In this document: positions 29,395 to 59,701 of the stretch, one piece after another
How positions within the stretch are numbered: the stretch's first letter is position 1
Layout: the number at the start of each line of letters is the position of its first letter
NCBI RefSeq assembly: GCF_003991135.1
Contig: NZ_CP016379.1
Span: 2,480,001 to 2,544,000 of the forward strand
Origin: Anoxybacter fermentans
Lineage (GTDB): Bacteria; Bacillota; Halanaerobiia; DY22613
Length of the DNA stretch: 64,000 bases
Direction of reading: 5' to 3'
Notes under the pieces: model-generated
Seen by the model: only the letters and a program-made list of their open reading frames with translations
What the model was told of the DNA's origin: nothing
Database searches by the model: none
Program-made: the position numbers and the translations under genes

Positions 29395-29516
29395 CTTTTT
29401 CACTCCAATCGTCCACTTTTTAATTATTCGCGAAATCCGACAGATATCCTTCAAATTAACCCAAAAAAACTAAATTTAACACTACCTTTAGATATACTTT
29501 GCATTTTTAGATTTAT

Positions 29517-29738
29517 GATTATACTGCAAAAAGCTAATTTAGAGCGACATAGAAATTTTTCGCCAAATCATCTTAGCGAGATTTCCGACGAAATAAGGCC
29601 TCATCACAGGAGGTGATGAGCTAATCAAGGGCCAGGAGGGCCCTTTGAGTCAGAGAGCCTTATTTCGGCGGAAATCGAGCCTTAGATGATTCGAAAAATT
29701 TCTCATGAAGCGAAAAATTAGCTTTTTGCAGTAAAATC
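29517..29738 (+). repeat. 220-bp inverted-repeat element, copy A (complete)
   Basis: A 222-bp element with ends GATTATACTGCAAAAAGC and the inverse of GATTTTACTGCAAAAAGC. It is flanked on both sides by ATTTAT (29511-29516 and 29739-29744), a 6-bp target duplication. It contains no gene; the interior is strongly self-complementary, with CTCATCAC..GTGATGAG and a GGGCC..GGCCC palindrome. The right duplication overlaps the last base of the LptD-like stop codon. See copies B, C, D, F and fragments. Confidence 0.88.
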
Positions 29739-29743
29739 ATTTA

Positions 29744-31147
29744 TTAATATTTTAACCGAACTCCCATCTCAATAAAAAGGTCTATAAAATCTACTTCGGC
29801 TTTCAGGTCAAAACAATCATAAGCACGTACCACTCTCATCTGACCCAGTGTATACTCTTTACTTTCAAGACTATACTGTCCCTTAAGTTCCAGATCCCAT
29901 CCTTCATCTAATTCATTCCTATAATGATACATAAGTCTTCCTTCCACATATTCTTCCTTTGTATATTCATCAAATTCTGCCGGTAATATTACTCCCCAGC
30001 GATCGGTACGACCATAACCCAATCTCAAATTCCACCTTTTACCTAACGAAGATTGCACCCAAATATTCGATTTGCTTTTACCGGCAATCCCATAGTTGTC
30101 TACCCGGACATGGGTAGGGTTAAAAGACCATCCCAGCTTTGTCTGGCCCAACATATACTGATCACTAAAAGAAGTTGTTATATATAATTTATTTAACTCT
30201 GCTGTTGTTGTTTTTTCCGTGACCTTCGTCACACCTGTCATAATACTGTAATCTATACCAAATAAATTTAATTTAGGTGAATTCACTTCCAAAATCGGAG
30301 TTATTTTTCCCGAAGGATTACGGGATACATTGATCTTAGAATGCCAGCCATTTTTTAAATAGCCAAAATAGACTTCCTCATCATTCTTCCAACTCCAATT
30401 CACACTACCCCTGAATCCTTCTTTATTTTGGCGCCAGTTCAAAATCAAATTACCTGCCCACTCCTGATCATACTCTACTCCTCCACCGAGAGCAAAACCA
30501 TACCCAATCAAATAATTTCCATTTAATTCTGCTGTCCACTCCTGGTCATAATCTGCTCCAGCATTCAAAATAAGTTTTTCTCCCCTTTTATAATTTCCTT
30601 TAACCTTAAAACTAACATCTCCTGTTGTTGTAGCTTCTAAAACTGTTTCTGCGTATAAATCAGATGAAAAATCGTAAAAACCTTTGATCCGAATTCCAGC
30701 TCCTTTTTCTCCTGAATAAAAAATTTCTGGAAACCAGTTAGGAAACCGGTATTCACCATCACGATATTTAAGGACCAGATTCATTGGAAGAGGAAAAACT
30801 ATTTTTCCAATCTTCACCTTAACACCTGAGAAGATAATCTTTTCCTCAGGATAAAACTTAACCCCTTTTGCTATTATCAGATAATGAGGAGATTCCTTCT
30901 TACACCCGGTAAAAGATACGTGATTGAAAAAATATTTCTTTGTATCCAAATCCAGATATAGTTCATCGCCTTTCATATATTTATCATCTAACCATAACTC
31001 AAACCCATCTTTTGCTGTAAGATACTCCCCATCCCACTCAATCTCTCCTGCATCCAGAATAAGTTCTGCTTCCCCAGCATATCCAATGGTAGTAAAGAAT
31101 ATGCACCAAAAGATAATATAAGTCAATATGTTTAGTTTCAATTTCAT
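29744..31147 (-). CDS. LptD-like outer-membrane beta-barrel protein (OstA N-domain)
   Basis: Protein of 467 residues with a signal peptide (residues 1-24). A short periplasmic OstA-like jellyroll (LILDAGEIEWDGEYLTAKDG... GDELYLDLDTKKYFF) is followed by about 300 residues of alternating amphipathic strands rich in Tyr, Trp and Gly, ending VRLKY. This is the plan of LptD, which inserts LPS in the outer leaflet, but it is much shorter than the roughly 780-residue proteobacterial form. AAGGAG precedes the ATG. The neighbouring genes serve glycan export, and lptA, lptB, lptC and lptF lie at 37.6-40.4 kb. No LptE was seen. Confidence 0.72.
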   Translation of the reverse strand: MKLKLNILTYIIFWCIFFTTIGYAGEAELILDAGEIEWDGEYLTAKDGFELWLDDKYMKGDELYLDLDTKKYFFNHVSFTGCKKESPHYLIIAKGVKFYPEEKIIFSGVKVKIGKIVFPLPMNLVLKYRDGEYRFPNWFPEIFYSGEKGAGIRIKGFYDFSSDLYAETVLEATTTGDVSFKVKGNYKRGEKLILNAGADYDQEWTAELNGNYLIGYGFALGGGVEYDQEWAGNLILNWRQNKEGFRGSVNWSWKNDEEVYFGYLKNGWHSKINVSRNPSGKITPILEVNSPKLNLFGIDYSIMTGVTKVTEKTTTAELNKLYITTSFSDQYMLGQTKLGWSFNPTHVRVDNYGIAGKSKSNIWVQSSLGKRWNLRLGYGRTDRWGVILPAEFDEYTKEEYVEGRLMYHYRNELDEGWDLELKGQYSLESKEYTLGQMRVVRAYDCFDLKAEVDFIDLFIEMGVRLKY

Positions 31148-32516: not shown

Positions 32517-35048
32517 TTAGAAGTCGATGCTGAGACCAGCAGTAATTTGTTCTGCAGTGTAGTTAGCATTTTCAATCTTTTCAACTACATCAACTAAGAT
32601 TGGGTGATCTTTGTAACCATAACCCTCGAAGTTAATGTTGGTGTAGTTCAGAGTAGCCTTAACACTATCAGTAATAGCGTAGGTCAGACCAGCGTTGAAC
32701 TCTTTCTTCACACCAACAAGTTCCCCAGTGGATTGTACATCGATACCGTGGTTAGCATATTCATAACCAGCGTTCAGAGTCAGAGCATTGATAGTCTTGG
32801 TTACATCTACACCCAGATCATAGTTGAAGTTATCAGTGTTGTTCAGCAGCTTGAAGTTAGCAACAGTATCAATATCTACACCAGCAACAGTATAAGCTTC
32901 TGGATCAATAGAAGCAGTTACGGTCAGATCACCATCAAGTACTTTTTCAACATCAGCTTTGAAGATGCTATATTCTGCACCAGCGGTCAGAACAGTCACA
33001 TCTTTAATTACATCATGAGTGAGACCAGCAGTCAGAATATCGCCAGCATACTCAACAGCATACTTGTGAGTACTTAATTGGTTATTTCCACCTAATTCAT
33101 AGGTGTAGTCAGCTTTTACAGTTACACCAGGTACGAAGCTGTTCCAAACCAGATTTGCATAAACGTTATTAGCTTCGTCATCAGCTTTCCAAACGGTCTT
33201 TTCTAGCTTATTGCCATACTTATCATATTGATAGTATTTTACGCCACCAACTTCTGCAATATCATAGTCGGTTTCCTCATTACCGTATACTTTGTCAGCA
33301 GCATAATCTTCATATTGATCGTAAACATAACCAGCGGTTACATCAATGCCCAGAATGTTTTTAACAACCTCAACATTACGCTTCTGACGGGAAGCTTCAC
33401 TACCATCATCACGATTCCGCAGTTCTTGACTGAAGCTTGCAGTGACATCAAAACCAAACAGGTCGTAATTACCTACTTCAACACCAAAACTCATAATATT
33501 TTCCTTTACAAGATTTTCCTCCACTTTAATGCCATTGTAATATTTAATATTCTCGTAGCTACCGCTCAGAGTAACAGGACCAACTGGCAGTTTAGCACTT
33601 ACATCATAACCAGCTTTATCTTCGATATCTGCTAAGATACCTGAGAAATCTTTATCAATCAGTCTGTAACCAGCAGCCAACTCCAGATTACCCAGAGTAG
33701 TAGTACCAGTTACACGGAATAATTTGTTCTTGAACTCTCTATCGCTAACTGCGAAAGTAGTAGTCAGATCGATACCAGCTACATCATAACCGGACTCGAT
33801 ACCTGCAACGAACTTACCATCTTTTACAAATTGACCTTCAGAGTTCGCAGCAAAACCTACGAATGCAGTTGCATCCAGTACACCTAAACCTTGCTTAACA
33901 GCCAAAATATCAGATACAGTATAATCAACTATAGGCAATCCTTCTTTATCATCAGTGTTAACTATAATATCTTCAGCTACACCGTCTCCATTAACATCGT
34001 AGGTAGCAGGTACACCAGGATCACTAGGAGCAACAATTGTTCTTTTTACATTTAAATCTGGTACACCTTGCTTATTACGAGCTAATACATAAATGTTGTC
34101 ACCAGCTGTTACAACTACACCATCATAAGTCTTATCAGCATCACCCAGCAAGAAGTCTACCAGGGTAACTTCCTGATCGTTAGCAATTTCAGCAGTCAGT
34201 TCATCAGTTGTAACAGTAGCGGAGAAACTGTCAATATTCAGATCTAAAGTATCATCATAACCGGTTTTCGCTTCAACTGCTGGATCATAACCATCGTCTG
34301 CACTAATACTCCAGGTACCAAATACATCAGCAGTACCAGTAAGAGCAACATCAACACTTACAGGACCTTTGTTAATAGCGATACCCAGATCCAGAGTTTG
34401 CTCGAAAGTATCATTATCAGTAACAAATACATCAGATCCAGTATCAAATGGATTGGTGTAAGGAGTAGCACCTTCTAAGTTAGTTTTGGTAAAGTTTACA
34501 CCATAGCTACCATTGAACTTAACGGTTTCCAGATCTTCAACACGGCCTTCCAGTTTTGCAATACGGTCTTCCATAACATCCAGCCTAGCACCGATAGACT
34601 CCAGCTCAAACCTAAACTCCATAACCAGAGCTTCAACGATACCAGCTACTTCTTCAGCTTGAGCTTCAGTTAAGCTATCTGGTTGCTTAACAACAACTTC
34701 TGGCTTGTTCTTAGCCATCAGGCTCTTAAAGATAGCGATTACGTCTTCTGCTTGCCCAGCAGTCAGACCATTTTCCAAAGCTTCAACTTGCTCAGCCAGA
34801 AGTGCTCTTTCTTGAGCTACAGCGTCAAGAATACGAGCTACTATAACAGCAATCTCATAACGGGTTAAAGTCTTCTTACCCTTAAAAGTACCATCTGGGT
34901 AACCAGTAATGATACCGCTAGAAACTACTTTATTCAATGCATCATATGCCCAGTGGCTTGCAGGAACATCGCTAAATGGGCCAGCCATTACTGGAGCAGC
35001 TAATGCAAAAACAACAGCCAGAGTAACTAATAAAGCTATTCTCTTCAT
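32517..35048 (-). CDS. OmpM-type porin with S-layer-homology domain
   Basis: Protein of 843 residues: signal peptide (1-23, ending PVMAG), one SLH domain (FSDVPASHWAYDALNKVV.. ITGYPDGTFKGKKTLTRYE, about 24-75), a coiled coil (about 80-175, ending ARLDVMEDRIAKLEGRVEDL), then a large beta-barrel ending ITAGLSIDF. Known OmpM proteins of diderm Firmicutes bind secondary cell-wall polymer or peptidoglycan with the SLH domain and anchor the outer membrane. ATG 35048 follows GGGGGAG by 9 bases. Composition is richer in GC and in preferred codons than in neighbours, as expected for an abundant protein. Confidence 0.9.
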   Translation of the reverse strand: MKRIALLVTLAVVFALAAPVMAGPFSDVPASHWAYDALNKVVSSGIITGYPDGTFKGKKTLTRYEIAVIVARILDAVAQERALLAEQVEALENGLTAGQAEDVIAIFKSLMAKNKPEVVVKQPDSLTEAQAEEVAGIVEALVMEFRFELESIGARLDVMEDRIAKLEGRVEDLETVKFNGSYGVNFTKTNLEGATPYTNPFDTGSDVFVTDNDTFEQTLDLGIAINKGPVSVDVALTGTADVFGTWSISADDGYDPAVEAKTGYDDTLDLNIDSFSATVTTDELTAEIANDQEVTLVDFLLGDADKTYDGVVVTAGDNIYVLARNKQGVPDLNVKRTIVAPSDPGVPATYDVNGDGVAEDIIVNTDDKEGLPIVDYTVSDILAVKQGLGVLDATAFVGFAANSEGQFVKDGKFVAGIESGYDVAGIDLTTTFAVSDREFKNKLFRVTGTTTLGNLELAAGYRLIDKDFSGILADIEDKAGYDVSAKLPVGPVTLSGSYENIKYYNGIKVEENLVKENIMSFGVEVGNYDLFGFDVTASFSQELRNRDDGSEASRQKRNVEVVKNILGIDVTAGYVYDQYEDYAADKVYGNEETDYDIAEVGGVKYYQYDKYGNKLEKTVWKADDEANNVYANLVWNSFVPGVTVKADYTYELGGNNQLSTHKYAVEYAGDILTAGLTHDVIKDVTVLTAGAEYSIFKADVEKVLDGDLTVTASIDPEAYTVAGVDIDTVANFKLLNNTDNFNYDLGVDVTKTINALTLNAGYEYANHGIDVQSTGELVGVKKEFNAGLTYAITDSVKATLNYTNINFEGYGYKDHPILVDVVEKIENANYTAEQITAGLSIDF

Positions 35049-35059
35049 TGTCACTTTCT

Positions 35060-35480: not shown

Positions 35481-35495
35481 TTCAAATTATTTAAT

Positions 35496-35716
35496 GATTA
35501 AACTGCAAAAAGCTAATTTTGAGCGCCATAGAAATTTTTCGCCAAATCATCTTAGCGAGATTTCCGACGAAATAAGGCCTCATCACAGGAGGTGATGAGC
35601 TAATCAAGGGCCAAGAGGGCTCTTTGATTAGGAAGTCTTATTTCGGCGGGAATCGAGCTTTAGATGATTCGAAAAATTTCTCAAGAAGCGAAAAATTTGC
35701 TTTTTGCAGTAAAATC
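35496..35716 (+). repeat. 220-bp inverted-repeat element, copy B (complete)
   Basis: A 221-bp copy with ends GATTAAACTGCAAAAAGC and the inverse of GATTTTACTGCAAAAAGC. It is flanked by ATTTAAT at 35489-35495 and 35717-35723, a 7-bp (or longer by chance) target duplication. Same orientation as copy A and nearly the same sequence, which points to recent spread. It lies between the ompM leader and the end of the YqgF-like gene. Confidence 0.88.
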
Positions 35717-35812
35717 ATTTAATTCAATGATTTCACTGCAAAACTATAGTGACATAACATAATAAACATATTCGCTAAACCCTACAAAATTCCTTCCCCA
35801 TTAATAAAAATT

Positions 35813-40547: not shown

Positions 40548-40722
40548 AATTAAATTTTGAGCGACATAGAAATTTTTCGTTAAACCATCTTAGTGAGATT
40601 TCAGTCGAAATAAGGCCTCATCACAGGATGTGATGAGCTAATCAAAGACCAGGAGGGCCCGTTTCGATAGTTCGAAAAATTTCTTCATAAAACGAAAAAT
40701 TAGCTTTTTGCAGTAAAAATCA
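40548..40722 (+). repeat. 220-bp inverted-repeat element, copy C (decayed)
   Basis: Shares the interior GAGCGACATAGAAATTTTTCG and the right end TTAGCTTTTTGCAGT with copies A and B. It has lost most of the left terminal repeat and about 40 bases in the right half. No target duplication remains. It occupies most of the gap between galU and lptC, which otherwise holds only the galU terminator. Confidence 0.75.
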
Positions 40723-46802: not shown

Positions 46803-47960
46803 TTACTTTTCTCCAGCGGTGTTTTCCTCTAATGTCCTTAAAATCAGATCAGCTACCCGTTCAACTGCTCCTTTGGCCCCTAAAGCTGTACGAACTTTAG
46901 CCAACTCATCCTCTATCTCTTCTTTTTTTGCCCGATTCTCTAATATCTCAAAGGCAGCCCGGGCCAGATTCTCCCCAGTAACATTCCTCTGCAGAAATTC
47001 AGGAACTATCTCTTTTCCTGCAATTATATTGGGCAAACCAACAAACTTAACTTTCGCCAATAGTTTACCCAAAAAATACGTGCTCAATGAAGTCTTATAT
47101 GCAATAATCATGGGAACTTTAAGACAGGCTGCTTCTAAAGTTGCAGTTCCCGATGCACATAAAATCAGTTCTGCATTATCCATCACTTCATAGGCATGAC
47201 CGATAGTCAAATATAATGGAAGTTCATTAGCCGCATCTTTTATGATGGAAGTAACCAGATCCTTAAAGACAGGTGAAGCCAAAGGTAACACAAAACGAAT
47301 TTGCGGCATCCTTTTATGGATTAGCCGTGCTGCTTCAATCATTGGCGGCAGTAAAGATAAAATCTCACCTTTACGACTCCCGGGCAGTAAACCAATAATA
47401 GGATCAGTCTCTTTTAAACCTAAGAAATTACGGAATTCCTCTGAAGACATCGTAGGTGATACAAAATCCAACAGTGGATGTCCTACAAAAGTAACATCAG
47501 CACCTGCCTTTTTATAGACATCTACTTCCATAGGAAAAACAGCGGCAATTTTTGCCCCCCATTTTGCCATCTTATAAGCACGCCATTCGCCCCAGACCCA
47601 TGCTGAAGGACTAAAATAATTGACCACCGGCACACCCTTTTTCTGTCCTATCTTTGCCATTTTCATATTAAAGCCCGAGTAATCTACTAAAAAAAGAAGA
47701 TCTGGCTTCTCTTCATCAATTACTCGGCTTAACATGTCCAATAGCTGATAAAATTTACGCAAATGTTTTAAAGCCTCAACAAAGCCAATAGTACTAAGCT
47801 GGGTGGGGTCAAAGAGAATTTTAACTCCCTCTTTTAGCATCTCTTTTCCCCCCATCCCTATAAATGACAAATCTGACCTTTTCTTTTTAAGAACACGAAT
47901 TACCCGGGCTGCCTGCATATCGCCGGAAACTTCACCAGCAACAACCATAATTTTAAACAT
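46803..47960 (-). CDS. lpxB: Lipid-A-disaccharide synthase
   Basis: Peripheral membrane GT19 enzyme of 385 residues joining UDP-2,3-diacylglucosamine and lipid X. N-terminus KIMVVAGEVSGDMQAARVI, then FIGMGGKEM, DYSGFNMKMA, SPSAWVWGEWRA, LLPGSRKGEI and ASGTATLEAACLKVPMIIAYK all match LpxB proper. ATG 47960 follows GAGGTG, and the GTG inside that site is rejected. It begins just before or at the lpxI stop region (ATGAGGTGATTGATATG), so the two are coupled. Confidence 0.95.
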   Translation of the reverse strand: MFKIMVVAGEVSGDMQAARVIRVLKKKRSDLSFIGMGGKEMLKEGVKILFDPTQLSTIGFVEALKHLRKFYQLLDMLSRVIDEEKPDLLFLVDYSGFNMKMAKIGQKKGVPVVNYFSPSAWVWGEWRAYKMAKWGAKIAAVFPMEVDVYKKAGADVTFVGHPLLDFVSPTMSSEEFRNFLGLKETDPIIGLLPGSRKGEILSLLPPMIEAARLIHKRMPQIRFVLPLASPVFKDLVTSIIKDAANELPLYLTIGHAYEVMDNAELILCASGTATLEAACLKVPMIIAYKTSLSTYFLGKLLAKVKFVGLPNIIAGKEIVPEFLQRNVTGENLARAAFEILENRAKKEEIEDELAKVRTALGAKGAVERVADLILRTLEENTAGEK

Positions 47961-47965
47961 ATCAA

Positions 47966-48772
47966 TCACCTCATTGCCACAACGGCAATCCCATTTTCAT
48001 TAGCCAATTCAAGAACTTCCTTTTGCTGGATAAAGAAAGTTCGGTCTGCTTCAACTACTAATCCCCTTGCACCAACAGCAACCAGATTCTTCATAGTGGT
48101 CAATCCAATGGTTGGAATATCAAAGCGGAAATCCTGCCTGGGTTTGCTGACTTTGGCTACTACAGCTCCCCGGGCCAACTCACCACTTCTTAATATAGCC
48201 CGATCTGTTCCCTCAATAGCTTCTACAGCAATCACTGCTCCATCCTTGACCACTACCGTTTGACCAATATCTAAACGTCCAATCTCCTTGGCCATCTTAA
48301 AACCAAATTGCATATCATTAAGAAGATCTGGACTTAAATTCAATTCAGGAGTAAGATTACCTTCACGGGCAATAAATTCCTCCATATAAGTGGTCTGTTT
48401 AAGAAACTGAATTCCTTCATTAGCAAGTTCTTCTACTAAAGCCAACAAAATAGCGTCATCATTCTTTTCTTTTAAATTCTTAAGTAGATTCAAAAGACGT
48501 TCATCCATCTTCAGACCTTGATAAAGCTGCACTTTCTGAACTTTACCCAACATTATTGCATTTTCAATCTTTTCTTTTTTTAAAGTTTCAATAATCTGAT
48601 TGAGTTCTCCTATACTTATTTGATAATAGCAATGGGAATATTTTTTCAGCTCATCTTCTTTCGTTTCCGGCGTAATACCAATGGTTACTACCTGAACTCC
48701 TTTTTTTTGAGCATTCCTAGCCCAGAGAACAGGCAGCATCCCGTAACCAGCAATCAATCCAATCCGTCTCAT
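47966..48772 (-). CDS. lpxI: UDP-2,3-diacylglucosamine pyrophosphatase LpxI
   Basis: Hydrolyses UDP-2,3-diacylglucosamine to lipid X in the cytoplasm, the step done by LpxH in E. coli. The 268-residue protein has the DUF1009/LpxI pattern: IGLIAGYGMLPVLWARNAQ at the start, MLGKVQKVQLYQGLKMDER in the middle and VVKDGAVIAVEAIEGTDRAI then KVSKPRQDFRFDIPTIG toward the end. It lies between lpxA and lpxB as is usual in LpxI users. GGGAGG is 6-7 bases before the ATG. Confidence 0.94.
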   Translation of the reverse strand: MRRIGLIAGYGMLPVLWARNAQKKGVQVVTIGITPETKEDELKKYSHCYYQISIGELNQIIETLKKEKIENAIMLGKVQKVQLYQGLKMDERLLNLLKNLKEKNDDAILLALVEELANEGIQFLKQTTYMEEFIAREGNLTPELNLSPDLLNDMQFGFKMAKEIGRLDIGQTVVVKDGAVIAVEAIEGTDRAILRSGELARGAVVAKVSKPRQDFRFDIPTIGLTTMKNLVAVGARGLVVEADRTFFIQQKEVLELANENGIAVVAMR

Positions 48773-48783
48773 GTCAAACCTCC

Positions 48784-49596
48784 CTAACGAACTATACCAC
48801 GGGTTGCATTCCGTAAAAATCTTAAGAAATGTTCAATCTCAGGACTGGTCTCTAATTCCTGATCCATCCTTTCAATAGCCTGAGAAATATTCAAATCTGA
48901 ACGGTATAAAATTTTGTAAGCTCGCTTAATCTCCTGTCTTAACTCAGGAGAGATACCATTACGACGCAAACCAACTACATTAATACCTGCTACACGGGCA
49001 GGATGACCATCGACAATAATATAAGGTGGTACATCTTTAACAACTTTAGTATGGGCCCCGACCATAGCCATTTTACCAATGCGCACAAACTGATGAATCC
49101 CCGCTAAACCGGCAATTACAGCATGATCTTCCACAATTACATGACCTGCTAAATTGGCTGCATTGGACATAATTATATGATTACCCAACTGGCAATCATG
49201 GGCAACATGACAATAGGCCATGATAAGATTATTATTACCAATCCGGGTCTCCCCTCCACCGTTTTCAGTACCACGATTAATGGTTACATATTCCCGAATG
49301 GTATTATTATCCCCAATAAATAAATAGGATTTTTCACCATGAAACTTTAAATCCTGTGGTTCCAATCCAATGGATGCACCAAAGAAAATTTTATTATTAC
49401 AACCTATTTTGGTCCATCCATCAATTACAACATGAGGCCCAATCTTTGTATTATCACCAATTTCTACATTCGGCCCAATAATGCTATAAGGGCCAATCTC
49501 CACATTTTTTCCTATCTTGGCCCCGGGATGTACTATTGCTGTTTCATGTATTTTGGCCATATGAACAACATTATCTTTCGGTTTTACTTTTTTCAT
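48784..49596 (-). CDS. lpxA: UDP-N-acetylglucosamine acyltransferase
   Basis: First enzyme of lipid A synthesis, moving a hydroxyacyl chain from ACP to O-3 of UDP-GlcNAc. The 270-residue protein is a left-handed beta-helix of hexapeptide repeats (IHETAIVHPGAKIG.. VEIGPYSIIGPNVEIG) with the catalytic His in AYCHVAHDCQLGNHIIM, and HQFVRIGKMAMVGAHTKV. A helical C-terminus follows. The ATG at 49596 follows GGAGG; it adds about 12 residues over the common family start, and the inner ATG has no ribosome site. Confidence 0.95.
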   Translation of the reverse strand: MKKVKPKDNVVHMAKIHETAIVHPGAKIGKNVEIGPYSIIGPNVEIGDNTKIGPHVVIDGWTKIGCNNKIFFGASIGLEPQDLKFHGEKSYLFIGDNNTIREYVTINRGTENGGGETRIGNNNLIMAYCHVAHDCQLGNHIIMSNAANLAGHVIVEDHAVIAGLAGIHQFVRIGKMAMVGAHTKVVKDVPPYIIVDGHPARVAGINVVGLRRNGISPELRQEIKRAYKILYRSDLNISQAIERMDQELETSPEIEHFLRFLRNATRGIVR

Positions 49597-49660
49597 TTTG
49601 CTTCCTCCTCATTTGTTTCTATAAAAACAAGTGACCTGGATTTTGACGGGAGCATAAACC

Positions 49661-50098
49661 TTAAACTATTGCTTCTTCTACAACAGTAAACATTAATTCA
49701 CCCTCTGCAACTATTTCTCCATCAACCAGGGCACGACAATAAACTTTGGCAATATTCCGTCTCAATTTAAGCATTTCAGACTCGATACGAAGTTGGTCGC
49801 CCGGTACAACAGGTTTGCGAAATTTCACCTTATCAATTCCTGTGAAATAAGGGAGCTGGCGAGAGGATTTATGTTTGTCTAAAAGCATAAAACCGCTGAC
49901 CTGTGCCATAGCTTCTACAATTAATACACCAGGCATCACTGGATGATCTGGATAATGTCCCTGGAAAAAAGCTTCATTAATAGTCACATTTTTGATACCT
50001 ACTACTCGAACACCCTCTTCCAACTCCAATATCCGGTCCACCAAAATAAATGGATAACGGTGAGGAAGTAAATCCATAATTTCTTTTATCTTTAACAT
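49661..50098 (-). CDS. fabZ: (3R)-hydroxyacyl-ACP dehydratase FabZ
   Basis: Dehydrates beta-hydroxyacyl-ACP in fatty acid elongation; it competes with LpxA for the same acyl-ACP, which explains the linkage. The 145-residue hot-dog-fold protein has [14 protein letters not shown] and the active-site helix [20 protein letters not shown]. The ATG overlaps the end of lpxC by seven bases. In some bacteria LpxC and FabZ are fused; here they are separate and overlapping. Confidence 0.95.
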
Positions 50099-50944
50099 CT
50101 GCCTGCCTCCTGTTGCAAAAATATTTTTTTAGAAAGCTCTGCATTTAAACTATGACCTGATTTAATACCGATAAAGTGCCCATAAACCCGCCCATTTACT
50201 GCCAGGTCACCAATTAAATCTAAAACCTTGTGCCTGACAAACTCATCTTTAAAGCGTAATGGATTAACTGTGTCCTCATCATCAATTAAAACAGCATTAT
50301 CTAAACTTCCACCAAGGGCAAGACCTCTTTTATGAAGCATCTCAACCTCCCGGGCAAAACCCAAAGGTTCTGGCTGGAGCAATCTCCTTTAAAAATACTT
50401 CACTGTTGATCTCATAATCAACATATTGGGTTCCAATAACCGGGTGATTATATGATAATGTGTAACTAATCCGTAACCCATCATAAGGTAAAGCTACAAG
50501 AGTGGCATCATTGTCTCTGACAAAGATAGGTTCTGTAATCTTAATCACTCGTCTTTTTTTGGACTGTTTTATAAGTCCAGCTTCTTTAAATAAATCCATA
50601 AAAACAACAGCACTTCCATCAGTAACAGGAGGTTCTCCTGCATCCAGTTCAACAATTAAATTATCTATACCGGTCATAGATATCGCAGCCATTAAATGTT
50701 CGATAGTATGAATATACCAATTTTCTTCTATAGAACCGATTGAAGTACACCGTTTAGTAGAAACAATATTCATAGGTGAAACCTTAATCATAGGTTTTTG
50801 AGGTAAATCTACCCTTCGAAAACAGATCCCTGTATCCTCAGGTGCAGGCAAGCAGGTCATTTTTACATCCTCTCCAGTGTGTAACCCAATCCCTGTATAG
50901 GTAACTGTTTTTGCAATAGTCTGCTGCAAATCCGTCCAGTCCAC
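50092..50944 (-). pseudogene. lpxC: LpxC deacetylase gene with one-base frameshift
   Basis: Committed step of lipid A synthesis, a zinc deacetylase. The first frame (from GTG 50944, GGAG 8 bases upstream) gives IEHLMAA with the zinc histidine region HTIEHL, and ELDAGEPPVTDGSA. It leaves the normal reading after PARTFGF at 50356-50359, where four T bases (minus strand) stand where three would keep frame, and stops at CPGG. The second frame resumes AREVEMLHKRGLALGGSLDNA and holds FVRHKVLDLIGDL (His, Asp) and SGHSLN (His). Together the frames make a full-length protein of about 283 residues with all catalytic residues. Could be a sequence error, a fresh mutation, or a frameshifting site. Confidence 0.85.
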
Positions 50945-51059: not shown

Positions 51060-51791
51060 TTATTGATATTCAATCATCTCTTTATAGCGCCGTCCCACCC
51101 AGGATTTAGGGGCTTTAAAAATTGTTTCAGGACTGCCTTCTTCTACAATAACGCCCTGGTCCATGAGAACAATTCTATTGGCAACCCGGCGGGCAAAAGC
51201 TACTTCATGGGTCACAATCAAAAGTGACTTATCTTTTTGTCTGGTCAACTCTTCCATAACTTTCAACACTTCCCCGACCAGAATCGGGTCAAGGGACGCT
51301 GTCGGTTCATCTAAGAGCATAAGATCCGGGTCTAAGGCCAGAGCACGGGCAATAGCTACCCGCTGCTGCTGGCCGCCACTTAATTCCGCCGGTTTAGAAT
51401 GAATAAAATTCTTTAACTCAACCTGTTCTAAAACCCGGATTGCCCTCTCTTCAGCTTCTTTTGGTTTTAAACCCCATTTTATAAGCCCCAACATTACATT
51501 TTGGAGAACTGTAAGTCGATTAATTAGATTAAAGTTTTGAAAAACGAAACCAATATCCTTTCTTAGCTTTAGAAGTTCTTTTTCATTTAGCTGATGGACA
51601 GGAATTCCTTTATAAATAATCTCTCCTGAATCCGGTTCAGTTAAACGATTTATACAGCGGATAAGAGTAGACTTCCCGCATCCGCTCGGTCCCATAATAA
51701 CTACAGTTTCACCGGTATTAACAGTAAGATTAATCCCCTTTAAAACCTGGTGTGAACCATATGATTTTTTTAAATTAATGACCTTTAACAT
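51060..51791 (-). CDS. ABC transporter ATP-binding protein (GlnQ/FtsE-like)
   Basis: Cytoplasmic ATPase of 243 residues with Walker A GPSGCGKSTLIRCIN, Q-loop GFVFQNFNLI, signature LSGGQQQRVAIARALA, Walker B LMLLDEPTASLDP and switch His in VTHEVAFARRVA. By overall likeness it belongs with polar amino-acid uptake ATPases (GlnQ), but no permease or binding-protein gene is beside it. The nearest gene upstream on the same strand is the 1+3-TM membrane protein at 52090. Removing the repeat element D that sits between leaves about 70 bases, so they were probably an operon. Confidence 0.9.
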   Translation of the reverse strand: MLKVINLKKSYGSHQVLKGINLTVNTGETVVIMGPSGCGKSTLIRCINRLTEPDSGEIIYKGIPVHQLNEKELLKLRKDIGFVFQNFNLINRLTVLQNVMLGLIKWGLKPKEAEERAIRVLEQVELKNFIHSKPAELSGGQQQRVAIARALALDPDLMLLDEPTASLDPILVGEVLKVMEELTRQKDKSLLIVTHEVAFARRVANRIVLMDQGVIVEEGSPETIFKAPKSWVGRRYKEMIEYQ

Positions 51792-51863
51792 CGCTCATCA
51801 CTCTCTTTAAATCTTTCTATTATAACTATTTTTACCACTTAACCAGAAATCAATTATATCAAT

Positions 51864-52084
51864 GGTTATACTGCAAAAAGTTAATTTTTCGCTTAAGGAG
51901 AAATTTTTCAAACCATCTAAAACTCGATTTCAGTCGAAATAAGGCTCCCTAATCAAAGGACCCTCCTGCCCCTTGATTAACTCATCACCTCTTGTGATGA
52001 GGCCTTATTTCGACTTCAATCTCGCTAAGATGGTTTAACGAAAAATTTCAATAGCGCTCAAAATTAGCTTTTTACAGTTTAATC
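51864..52084 (-). repeat. 220-bp inverted-repeat element, copy D (complete, inverted)
   Basis: A 221-bp copy in the opposite orientation to A and B. Ends are GGTTATACTGCAAAAAG and the inverse of GATTAAACTGTAAAAAGC. It is flanked by ATCAAT at 51858-51863 and 52085-52090, a 6-bp target duplication. The right duplicate touches the stop codon of the gene at 52090, so the element sits between that gene and the ATPase gene downstream. Confidence 0.88.
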
Positions 52085-52089
52085 ATCAA

Positions 52090-54570
52090 TTACTTAAAAA
52101 TCAGGTTTCTACGATTTAATAGATAGAGAATTCCAGGTTTACCGGCCGGAATCACAATTTGACGCAAAATCTCCGTTAAATTAAAACCTAAAGCTTCCCC
52201 GGCTATATACTCTTTTTTATCTACCGGATTGATCCGGTCCGTCATAAGAGCAATAACAAGGCCCATAATCGCACCAATCCAGGCGCCGGGATGATTTTCA
52301 ATATACGGCAGTTGTCCATTGGTAAGACGGAAAATCAACTCTAAAGTTAAACTTCCCATAATCATCCCAAAAAGGACCTCTGAATTTATAATTCTTACAA
52401 TAAAAGCCTGCTTCTTTCTTTTCCTAAGTTCTTTAATCACTGACATAATCCCTGACAAATCCAACATTAAAACCAGCATTATAAGAACTACTGCAACCAT
52501 AGCGGTAATTGTCTCCCGTACTTCAGAAATAATTCTTAAAAACTCACCCCGTACATTGGGTTGTACAATTCCTGCATCCATACTAAAAACTGAAATAGTT
52601 GATTGACCCACTACTTCCATAACAAAAGGTTCAATAGATTTGATATTTAAATCTGCCGGAACCAGAATCAAAATCTGCTCACCTGGAATAATCTGACCGG
52701 ACATATACTTTTCTATCAACTTAATGGCTCTGGTCACTTCTTCATCTCTTAGGTTCGGCAAAGTATCACTAATATAATTCAGCTCTTTGATAATAGCTTC
52801 TACATCCGATTCCTGAATCTTTTCTAAACTCTCTTTAAAACCCTGAATTTCCTGGCTCATCTTTTTATCGTCCAGACGATCCAGATATTCAAGGGTTGTT
52901 TTACTACCTGAAATAAGCCGATCCAGAATGTCGGTCACAGAACTGGTATTGTTATTTAAAAGATCTCCGCTTATTACCATCTGTTCTAACTTTTCTAAGT
53001 CACTGCGCCAATCAGAAATTTGACGCAAAATAGGATTGTATTCATTTAACCTTTTAAGAATTTCACCGGTGTTGTTACGCAGAGCCAGCTGCAACTTAGA
53101 AGCTACATCTACTGCTTGATCCAGCTCTTTGCTGTAACTCTCACTTAAACCAAAATCATTTTTCAAAATTTCCACCTGGCCCTGAAATTGGCCCAATTCA
53201 TAGTCGATACGGACAATCTCTTTTTGGGCCCACTCCATTTTGGAAGCAAACTCTTCTGCCGTATTAACTATGGCTAACAGTTGACCGATAAAATTTTGAA
53301 CCTTTGACAAATCTAGTTGATTTAGTTTATTCCTTATCTCTTCTACTTTAGCCTGACCTTCTTTTAAAATCTTTTGAACTTCCTTAATTTCAGCCAGAGT
53401 ATCATTATAAATCTCTAAAGCTTTTAATGCTTCTCCCGTCATTCCGTATAACTTAGAAAAGATTTGATCTAAATGAGGTAAAACTTTAGCCAGTTCATCA
53501 GCGGCATATTTCAAATCTTCCCGCGGACTTTTGATCCTGGCCTCACCCAAAAAGGCAGCTATCTTGCCCTTAGCATCCAGTTTATATACTCCTTTAGACT
53601 GGATATCTGTCACATTACCTTCCACAATCAATGCTTGAATCTCTTTATCATTAACCTCTGTAACCTGAAGTTTTAAGTCCATTGGTGTAGCATCTTCACC
53701 TACTTTAAGTCCTGAACGTCCCGGGCCAGGCATAATCAGATAATCATCCTTATGAATGACAAAATCCCAATCAGGTGATACTGGAATGGTGATAACCGTT
53801 GCATATTGAAGTAAAAATTTCTTCATCTCCAACATGGTATTAACCAGATACTGCTGATCATCCACCTCATTGGTAGTCAGGTTTTTGGCAAAAGCCAGGT
53901 TATATTTATCCTTTAACTCAGTCGCCAACTTCTCCCCCATAGAAATAACATCCACTGGCCCGTTGTCAATGGGAAATCTGACCTCCAGAACCTGATATTG
54001 TTTCAAAAACTTTTTCACTTCTTCTGTAACGTAATCAATATCTTTGGGGGAGTTCAGCATCAGGTCAATCCCCGAACTCCCAACAGGGTATGTGAAATGA
54101 ACTCCCTTAATATCAGCTAGCTTTTGTTCAAATTCTTCCAAAAGTCCCCGCGGAACTCCCCTGATTGTAACCCGGGGCTCAGACATCATTGTCACACCAA
54201 CAAGTCCTGTTACATTGGAAAAATAACTGCTCATCTTCATAAAATATTCTCTTGTTTTATATTTATCATCCAGGCTTACAAAAAAGTTGGTTTTTCCAGC
54301 AATGGTTACACCCTGCTCAACTTTAGAACCGGGCAGTTTAACCCGTAAAATATCCCGTATCTGGGCCAAAGCAGAGCGCCTTGTCTCCCGGTTAACTGTT
54401 AAAAGCAGGTCATACTCACCATAATCACCGATTAATCCGGTAACAGTATTTCCAAAGTAATTATCTGCCATATAACCTGCTGCCATTGCTATTGCCGATC
54501 CAACTAAAACCACAACCAGAAAATGTACTATCAAATCACGGCTAAAACCTGATCTCAGTAAATATAGCAT
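52090..54570 (-). CDS. Unrecognised membrane protein with 1+3 TM layout and long coiled coil
   Basis: Protein of about 826 residues. One N-terminal TM helix (about 13-33) is followed by about 650 extracytoplasmic residues: first mixed alpha/beta (DYGEYDLLLTVNRETRR..), then coiled coil (about 350-600). Three C-terminal TM helices follow (about 680-705, 725-745, 760-780) and a short tail. This 1+3 layout is that of FtsX/MacB-type ABC permeases that pass force from an ATPase to periplasmic partners. I do not recognise the family by sequence. The ATPase at 51060 is the likely partner. ATG 54570 follows GGGAGGGAG by 9 bases. Confidence 0.7.
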   Translation of the reverse strand: MLYLLRSGFSRDLIVHFLVVVLVGSAIAMAAGYMADNYFGNTVTGLIGDYGEYDLLLTVNRETRRSALAQIRDILRVKLPGSKVEQGVTIAGKTNFFVSLDDKYKTREYFMKMSSYFSNVTGLVGVTMMSEPRVTIRGVPRGLLEEFEQKLADIKGVHFTYPVGSSGIDLMLNSPKDIDYVTEEVKKFLKQYQVLEVRFPIDNGPVDVISMGEKLATELKDKYNLAFAKNLTTNEVDDQQYLVNTMLEMKKFLLQYATVITIPVSPDWDFVIHKDDYLIMPGPGRSGLKVGEDATPMDLKLQVTEVNDKEIQALIVEGNVTDIQSKGVYKLDAKGKIAAFLGEARIKSPREDLKYAADELAKVLPHLDQIFSKLYGMTGEALKALEIYNDTLAEIKEVQKILKEGQAKVEEIRNKLNQLDLSKVQNFIGQLLAIVNTAEEFASKMEWAQKEIVRIDYELGQFQGQVEILKNDFGLSESYSKELDQAVDVASKLQLALRNNTGEILKRLNEYNPILRQISDWRSDLEKLEQMVISGDLLNNNTSSVTDILDRLISGSKTTLEYLDRLDDKKMSQEIQGFKESLEKIQESDVEAIIKELNYISDTLPNLRDEEVTRAIKLIEKYMSGQIIPGEQILILVPADLNIKSIEPFVMEVVGQSTISVFSMDAGIVQPNVRGEFLRIISEVRETITAMVAVVLIMLVLMLDLSGIMSVIKELRKRKKQAFIVRIINSEVLFGMIMGSLTLELIFRLTNGQLPYIENHPGAWIGAIMGLVIALMTDRINPVDKKEYIAGEALGFNLTEILRQIVIPAGKPGILYLLNRRNLIFK

Positions 54571-54991
54571 CGACTTTTTCTCCCTCCCTCTGTCCATATA
54601 TTAGTATAACATTTTTTCAATTATCAGTAAATAACATGTGTGAATGTAAATCATGGCATATAATTTACGTTTTTTCGCATTCTATTATAACTTAGCTACA
54701 CTTATTATACCATGATTTTTAAAAAGGACAGATGTTAGTTTGTTCCAAAGATGAGGCCTTATTTCGACTGAAATTTCACTAAGATGGTTAACAAAAGTGC
54801 ACTTCTTTTTTTAAAAAAATTAGAGTAAAAACCCTTTATTGGCAAGTTTTTTGGTACTTTCCTTTCCGATTTCTAAATTTAATACTGTTTTCTTAGTTTA
54901 GAAAATTTTAAAAAATGTCAAAATTAAAAGGAATTATTTTCTTTTAATCGAATTACATATTTATTAAGAAAAGATAGGAGGGATAAATAAG
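54571..54991. other. Intergenic region between divergent genes
   Basis: About 420 AT-rich bases between the minus-strand membrane protein gene and the plus-strand lipoprotein gene. It must hold promoters for both, but I see no single convincing -35/-10 pair. A fragment of the 220-bp repeat family is at 54750-54795; otherwise nothing notable. Confidence 0.5.
54750..54795 (-). repeat. Fragment of the 220-bp inverted-repeat element
   Basis: GATGAGGCCTTATTTCGACT and ATTTCACTAAGATGGTTAAC match the right half of copy D. No ends remain. Confidence 0.65.
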
Positions 54992-59170: not shown

Positions 59171-59357
59171 AATTTTCTTGATGTGATTCCTTTGGGATTA
59201 TCAGTTTATTTATGATGTTTGAATTAAGAAAAATGATTGAATTGATGTTTACATTTCCTCCAATTGTATTTTATAATAGTCCAAATGCTCTTTACCTTAA
59301 TAAAGAGCTTCAAAAACATTTGGAACATTAAATTTTAATTTTAAACATATAATTTAT

Positions 59358-59577
59358 GGTCAAACTGCAAAAAGCTAATTTTTCGCTTTTTGAGAAATTT
59401 TTCGAATCATCTAAAGCTCGATTTCCGCCGAAATAAGGCTTCCTAATCAAAGGGCCCTCCTGGCCCTTGATTAGCTCATCAATCCTCAGATGAAGCCTTA
59501 TTTCGTCGGAAATCTCGCTAAGATAATTTGACGAAAAATTTCTATGTCGCTCAAAATTAGCTTTTTGCAGTAAAATC
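59358..59577 (-). repeat. 220-bp inverted-repeat element, copy F (complete, inverted)
   Basis: A 220-bp copy flanked by ATTTAT (59352-59357 and 59578-59583). It lies inside the second copy of a duplicated segment; the first copy (around 55783) lacks it and has one ATTTAT. It fills the gap between the TolC-like gene and small membrane protein copy 2. Confidence 0.92.
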
Positions 59578-59701
59578 ATTTATTAGAATTTTCTTCTCGG
59601 AGAATTGAAATTTTGGTTTGAAATATTCTACTTCCAGGAAAAAGGCTGGTTAAATTTTCATCTAACTAAACAGAACGAACAAGTTTAAGGAGGAATTTTT
59701 T

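Follow-up and report, generated by a model that had tools for sequence, protein, structure and literature searches.

The window analysed here is a stretch of 64,000 nucleotides from the genome of Anoxybacter fermentans (a single contig of 3.56 Mb), and its minus strand carries a conserved outer-membrane cluster of the diderm Firmicutes. The upstream end of this cluster is formed by two genes, one for an ATP-binding cassette (ABC) ATPase (51060-51791, 243 amino acids) and one for a permease-like protein that is largely periplasmic (52090-54570), which is called BIG in the following and occurs in a single copy in this genome. An initial annotation made from the sequence alone had described the two genes as an uncharacterised ABC-type system that follows the FtsX/MacB plan and is split by a mobile repeat. 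The open reading frame (ORF) of BIG is open up to 54597 and comprises 835 amino acids if counted from the first ATG. Since a GGAGGGAG-type site lies 9 bases upstream of the ATG at 54570, the 826 residues resulting from this start, as already given in the initial annotation, are the best length; residue numbers refer to an 829-residue version starting at 54579. The ATPase gene lies downstream on the same strand, as had been described, and Walker A, LSGGQ, Walker B and H-switch were all found.

The gap between the two genes amounts to 298 bases, of which about 227 (51862-52088) belong to a mobile repeat resembling a miniature inverted-repeat transposable element (MITE), with terminal inverted repeats of 27 nt (85%). 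Near-full copies are located at 29512-29748, 35491-35719 and 59356-59579 of the window and a partial one at 40553-40715, while MITE-like repeats of about 225 bases also adjoin many further genes of the same genome. Between the same genes of the nearest relative (G001) lie 56 bases, which gave no match to the repeat; for the state before the insertion, a gap of about 70 bases had been proposed. The repeat was inserted recently and does not belong to the system; it does separate the genes, and neither gene is broken by it.

Architecture and distribution of BIG

According to hydropathy and AlphaFold, BIG consists of one transmembrane (TM) helix, a large ectodomain and three further TM helices, four predicted TM helices in all, which agrees with the 1+3 plan described before. 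The N-terminal TM helix (residues 16-34, 54478-54534; predicted helix 12-50) is followed by two ferredoxin-like domains of the beta-alpha-beta-beta-alpha-beta type (51-205, 53965-54429), a helix and beta domain (206-350, 53530-53964), a coiled-coil hairpin with its tip near residues 477-480 (352-606, 52762-53526), a small beta-alpha-beta unit seen in the AlphaFold model, three C-terminal TM helices (676-783, 52231-52554) and an EAA-type coupling loop with a conserved C-terminal tail (788-828, 52096-52218), all encoded on the minus strand. While the N-terminal and two of the C-terminal TM helices were clear from hydropathy, the third C-terminal one (about 764-783) stayed below the threshold of 1.5, yet it is a helix in both AlphaFold models. 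The model of BIG, calculated from 25 sequences, showed a pLDDT of 77 and a pTM of 0.44. It places the two ferredoxin-like units at residues 55-201 and shows helices in the C-terminal tail; the first of the two units matched an ACT domain with a Z of 10.2 over 78 residues (root-mean-square deviation, rmsd, 2.5 A). In the Foldseek search with the large model, rows 1, 3 and 4 were MmpL5 and AcrB with TM-scores below 0.1, the first row being MmpL5 (E 2.6e-05, probability 0.63, TM-score 0.07). Coiled coils fill the PDB searches with this model, which reveal little about the rest of BIG.

Over 63 aligned members, the first ectodomain, with its two ferredoxin-like domains, comprised 152-155 residues and the small C-terminal ectodomain 67-71, while the middle domain was more variable (127-210). 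The coiled coil noted in the initial annotation was recovered as a predicted periplasmic hairpin, and its lengths fell into three clade-typical groups of 137-160, 197-198 and 220-257 residues. The hairpin arms, taken as half of the coil length, would accordingly measure about 70, 98 and 120 residues depending on the clade, or roughly 10-18 nm if straight. A reading of these lengths as heptad steps was rejected, since they are clade-typical and not strictly in sevens. Lengths set by clade may fit a spanning element, and kinship alone could also produce them.

No model of Pfam or NCBIfam scored above its cut-off for the BIG of the window, which had already been left without a family, and as judged from the profiles BIG constitutes a separate family. 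It is conserved over its full length across classes with about 30% identity, far beyond chance. Using a profile (A2) built from 63 sequences, BIG was found in 28 of 61 relatives (source genome counted), in 54 of 150 genomes from the class of Pelosinus and in 67 of 72 genomes from the class of 'Peptococcaceae bacterium 1109', taken as Limnochordia. Matches restricted to the coiled coil (G038, G052, G054) and secondary matches had been excluded before this count of 28, and a match in G036 was excluded as weak (C-terminal region, 37 positions, E 5.7e-4). A scan of genome contigs gave 72 BIG loci, including Sporomusa, Pelosinus, Anaerospora, Propionispora, Orenia, Natroniella and metagenome-assembled Limnochordia. 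The pair of BIG and ATPase is widespread in outer-membraned Firmicutes. In many genomes of the Pelosinus class two BIG matches were observed, and in Sporomusa-like Negativicutes five copies are remote from lpx genes (L071, L080, L091, L122, L126), four of them with the ATPase next to BIG.

The ATPase and the coupling end of BIG

For the linkage of the two genes, 99 loci (72 from named contigs and 27 others) were reduced to 84 distinct BIG genes by merging duplicates according to their last 100 residues. These genes span Halanaerobiia, Negativicutes, Limnochordia and further Bacillota, and 79 of them have at least 900 bp of downstream sequence. The ATPase was the next gene on the same strand in 78 of the 79 loci (77 by script and L128, where BIG overlaps its ATPase, by inspection), with a median gap of 19 bp. 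The sole exception is L122, an additional BIG copy in Anaerospora, so that a BIG lacking its ATPase neighbour, which the initial annotation had named as a finding that would speak against a common system, was seen only once. In a tree of ATPases, all 80 BIG-adjacent sequences, including that of the window, formed one clan against 20 paralogues with a support of 1.0; the LptB outgroup fell on the BIG-adjacent side, and without LptB the split was exact. A GlnP-like permease adjoins each of the 20 fetched paralogues. The other contrary finding named before, an ATPase always accompanied by amino-acid permeases, does not apply, as the BIG-adjacent ATPases are a clan of their own next to BIG.

The same picture resulted from the 61 relatives. 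Here the ATPase search was bimodal, with 27 matches of at least 276.8 bits, all in genomes with BIG, and the rest at or below 245.8 bits. With a cut set between these values after the gap had been seen, the orthologous ATPase is present in 27 of the 28 relatives with BIG and in none of the 33 without it. In the remaining BIG-positive relative (G053), BIG lies on a 3.5-kb contig that ends within the gene. Upstream of lpxC, neither BIG nor the ATPase was found at 13 loci of BIG-negative genomes, of which L202 and L207 reach little upstream. Judging by these comparisons, the two genes share inheritance, duplication and loss, and the pair is an ancient unit, which bears out the earlier assumption that they belong together.

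Regarding its lineage, the ATPase scored best with the NCBIfam model GlnQ (255.8 bits, below the equivalog cut-off of 379), the closest models being GlnQ, HisP and ArtP, while DevA (195.8 bits), LolD (189.3 bits) and FtsE (183.9 bits) followed at lower scores.

A corresponding relationship was observed for the C-terminal end of BIG. The EAA loop of importers shows the spacing E-A-A-x3-G-x9-I-x-L-P. The last 40 residues of BIG are strongly conserved, with E790, A793, G798, I804, P811, P815 and G816 invariant in 63 of 63 members, and the spacing of the EAA loop is present, with I at G+10 (I808 in 62 of 63) and P at G+13. The first E of the motif is replaced in BIG, and E790 stands two residues earlier. 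The protein terminates 18 residues past P811, and the two TM helices that follow the EAA loop in an importer are absent. The importer family PF00528 (BPD_transp_1) matched 27 of the 63 C-terminal domains at E<=0.01 (best 3.5e-06), and the NCBIfam matches of the C-terminal domains included PstC (14), PotC (8) and ArtQ (4). Compared with PDB sequences, the C-terminal profile gave PotC as best match (E 0.01, 91 columns comprising the last TM helices and the loop), followed by MetI (E 0.04). Among 3343 ORFs, a set enriched in fetched permeases (67 type I and 12 FtsX-domain ORFs), the best 21 matches other than BIG were all type I permeases with GlnP-like ones on top. Aligned by hhalign with the genome's own sets, the motor end of BIG reached 92% for type I permeases and 8% (8.4%) for FtsX; taken one by one, the 13 best targets were type I permeases, and several oligopeptide-type permeases stayed below 2%. 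At the level of sequence, there is good support for a common origin of BIG and type I permeases in the EAA loop and the preceding helix or helices, while a shared whole fold is unproven.

The FtsX domain PF02687, on the other hand, was absent from the families matched at E<=0.01 by the C-terminal domains of the 63 members, as well as from the 25 most frequent families at E<=0.1 for 25 members. No match to PF02405 (MlaE) was listed among the 63 members either. Membership in the FtsX/MacB (type VII) family, as suggested by the initial annotation, was rejected by these profile searches. From its FtsX/MacB plan the layout can be retained, since the 1+3 TM order and the ferredoxin-like ectodomains resemble MacB and RND proteins, but a likeness by homology is not supported.

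Genomic context

The position of the pair inside a conserved cluster for the outer membrane and lipopolysaccharide (LPS) is an addition to the earlier description. In the window, the cluster comprises a RuvX-like gene, DUF3084, LptF/G, an ABC ATPase in the LptB position, LptA, LptC, MsbA-like, LpxB, LpxI, LpxA, FabZ and LpxC. The neighbour outside the ABC pair is lpxC (50092-50944, minus strand, two overlapping frames), and fabZ, lpxA, lpxI and lpxB are the next genes (46803-50098, minus strand). In general the pair stands at the head of lpx genes, often beside lptA/lptC. Where at least 2.6 kb were available downstream, lpx or fabZ genes followed in 68 of 73 loci, lpxC itself in 53. Upstream of the pair, the examples profiled showed LptA/LptC-like, LptF/G or LptD-like genes, or LpxD together with a YjbH-like gene and a lipid A acyltransferase. 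Outer-membrane clusters of the diderm Firmicutes were surveyed before (PMC5007114); in the portion of that survey considered here the pair is not singled out, and the list of new outer-membrane genes is restricted to genes present in all genomes.

LpxC was detected in 56 of the 61 relatives, 27 of which also have BIG. Since many LPS-positive relatives live without it, the pair is not universally needed. Conversely, among 20 BIG-positive genomes reached through loci of the contig scan, lpxC was undetected in 7, most of them outside Halanaerobiia, and several loci of such genomes show the order BIG, ATPase, fabZ and an lpxB-like gene. This absence is provisional, because the genomes are mostly metagenome assemblies. 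An exclusive role in LPS export was weakened as a candidate by BIG-positive genomes without detectable lpxC. MlaE (PF02405) was found in none of the 61 relatives, though 56 have LpxC, so that the LPS diderms among them seem to be without Mla altogether. A replacement of Mla by the BIG system, prompted by this result, was weakened in turn by 12 of 26 other BIG-positive genomes, which have both.

Some further observations were made in these clusters. In six Limnochordia-like genomes (G070-G074 and G084; loci L109, L123, L102, L106, L112 and L121) lpxC was undetected, and their loci carry LptB-, LptF/G- and LptA/C-like genes and an LpxB-like gene; possibly, their outer membrane contains another kind of lipid. 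The lpxC of the window is divided into a frame of 200 amino acids and an ORF of 96, with two separate PF03331 pieces, one of them with a stop, while the copies of most relatives give one PF03331 match; the split is a frameshift, either genuine or introduced by the assembly. Near lpxC, one BIG-negative group (f4/g5) carries a gene for a subtilase-type protease (L211, 11036-12271). Further along the cluster of the window, an 845-residue protein with an SLH domain is encoded (32517-35054, minus strand), which from its context is presumably an OmpM-like outer-membrane tether.

Interpretation and comparison with known systems

Altogether, the pair probably helps to build or supply the outer membrane, a function that we infer from the data described above. 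With a confidence that falls a little short of even, BIG and the ATPase are assumed to make up a dedicated two-subunit ABC machine for outer-membrane biogenesis in diderm Firmicutes, perhaps one that moves an envelope lipid. With its C-terminus like that of type I permeases and its GlnQ-type ATPase, BIG resembles a truncated permease of an amino-acid importer combined with a periplasmic arm of the MacB/RND kind. Both parts of the motor, the GlnQ-like ATPase and the GlnP-like coupling end, point by their sequences to a polar amino-acid importer as the source, whose permease would have been cut off behind the EAA loop and extended by a TM helix and a sizeable periplasmic device. In the proposed mechanism, BIG would form a dimer with two ATPases docked on its C-terminal EAA loops; as ATP is bound and hydrolysed, the TM helices would move, and this movement would be passed to the RND/MacB-like ferredoxin-like domains and to the coiled-coil hairpin reaching through the periplasm. 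The coiled coils might form a conduit or arm that spans the periplasm, and the cargo moved between the membranes might be a phospholipid or some other lipid that LPS-containing and LPS-free outer membranes have in common. A lipid-related task is most likely because of the position in the outer-membrane cluster, the presence in genomes without lpxC and the long arm, while the system is unlikely to import a small solute, because the last two TM helices of the importer are absent; among the named neighbours, not all of which were profiled, no substrate-binding protein was recognised. By analogy, we take the system to work like MacB or FtsEX, transmitting force to the periplasm, outside their family. 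A further-reaching version is doubtful: a new ABC architecture, in which an importer core cut after the EAA loop and an RND/MacB-like arm would form an ATP-driven lipid bridge across the periplasm, derived from the common ancestor of the diderm Firmicutes, serving outer membranes with and without LPS, with a coiled coil set to the periplasm of each clade.

Several results weigh against the assumption of an importer-derived lipid machine. The homology to type I permeases is only local (about 35-90 residues), and an importer core would be two TM helices short. Four members reached 17.8-21.4 bits with PF00528 compared to a gathering score of 26.4, two members gave no match, and the BIG of the window itself was weak (10.2 bits, E 0.61). 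Foldseek with the C-terminal model was not significant (best E 0.82; 10 of 19 rows type I permeases). In the VIA comparison of this model, where a missing fold proves nothing, type I permeases (MalF with a Z of 4.1, PotC with 4.0) were level with type VII, for which HrtB showed a Z of 4.8 (rmsd 3.9, 99 aligned residues) and FtsX of 3.9 (rmsd 3.7, 81 aligned). The model confidence is low in the coiled coil (pLDDT about 53-78), 29 of the 56 LpxC-positive genomes are without the pair, and MlaE coexists with BIG in the 12 of 26 genomes mentioned above.

The main rival is a purely regulatory task, in which the ATPase would signal through BIG to a partner in the periplasm or outer membrane (a cell-wall hydrolase, Lpt or Bam) as in FtsEX, without transport. 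The 1+3 TM plan, the big ectodomain with its long coiled coil and the operon with outer-membrane genes but no substrate-binding protein recognised among the named neighbours would suit such a regulator, and a substrate path through BIG is doubtful because it lacks the TM helices of an importer beyond the EAA loop. However, the likeness of the ferredoxin-like domains is to RND and MacB proteins, both of them pumps, and no recurring division or hydrolase gene was recognised in the loci read, whose unnamed neighbours were not all profiled; a regulator of this kind is considered rather unlikely. Quite improbable is an accessory ATPase of the Lpt bridge that aids the exit of LPS from the inner membrane. 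In many Halanaerobiia and Limnochordia the pair immediately follows lptC/lptA, and lpxC or fabZ comes next after it, which would fit, but the BIG-positive genomes without detected lpxC, the 29 LpxC-positive relatives without BIG and the second copies remote from lpx genes in some Negativicutes do not, and the window already has LptF/G as well as an ATPase where LptB is expected.

A true type VII permease (MacB/FtsX/LolC) for tripartite efflux or lipoprotein release shares the TM order, the ectodomain between TM1 and TM2 and the ferredoxin-like domains with BIG. It is very improbable in view of the missing PF02687 (0 of 63 members), the hhalign values and the higher score of the ATPase for GlnQ than for DevA, LolD and FtsE. 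Hardly any chance is left for an ordinary amino-acid importer ATPase that by accident neighbours an unrelated coiled-coil protein. Although the ATPase is GlnQ-like, this reading is refuted by the linkage and co-loss of both genes, namely by the separate clan of BIG-adjacent ATPases at 78 of 79 loci against 20 of 20 paralogues beside GlnP-like permeases, and BIG itself bears an EAA loop.

Should the importer-derived lipid machine be correct, it would touch on the poorly known transit of lipids, phospholipids and others, across the periplasm in a group from which conclusions on the ancestral outer membrane are drawn. A further suggestion is that importer motors, once part of the channel has been lost, can be turned to driving a periplasmic device. 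The pair offers a direct genetic handle, as it is carried by cultured Sporomusa, Pelosinus and Orenia, while many LpxC-positive relatives are without it.

Compared to known systems, the BIG pair shares the GlnQ-lineage ATPase with the polar amino-acid importers (GlnPQ, ArtQN, HisQMP), and the C-terminal helices and EAA loop of BIG can be aligned with GlnP, PotC, MetI and PstC. Unlike type I importers, BIG has about 18 residues left beyond the final EAA-loop proline, with two TM helices gone, adds an N-terminal TM helix and about 620 periplasmic residues, and sits with genes of outer-membrane biogenesis. The type VII systems (MacB, FtsEX, LolCDE, YbbAP) show the same 1+3 order with ferredoxin-like domains in an ectodomain between TM1 and TM2, and as in FtsEX and LolCDE the ATPase of the BIG system is a separate subunit. 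They differ in that BIG has no FtsX domain, carries its coupling motif as an EAA loop at the extreme C-terminus and possesses a built-in coiled-coil hairpin of 137-257 residues, while MacB relies on a separate adaptor.

With MmpL4 and MmpL5, the mycobacterial RND transporters for lipids and drugs, BIG shares ferredoxin-like porter domains and a built-in coiled-coil hairpin, but the proton-driven core of 12 TM helices found in RND/MmpL transporters is replaced by four predicted TM helices and an ABC motor. Because the TM-scores are very low, this likeness concerns the layout only. For MmpS5L5, a trimer with a coiled-coil tube is described in the part of the report considered (PMC12501195). Another ABC system in an outer-membrane cluster of diderm Firmicutes is MlaFED of Veillonella, for whose long MlaD a trans-envelope bridge was proposed (PMC10665443, as far as considered here). 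The BIG pair is comparable in its location and in the proposed bridge, while BIG has no match to MlaE. According to the part of an ABC classification used here (PMC8386196), type I permeases have 5-6 or more TM helices per subunit and MacB has four, so that BIG corresponds to MacB in its number of TM helices and to type I permeases in its coupling motif.

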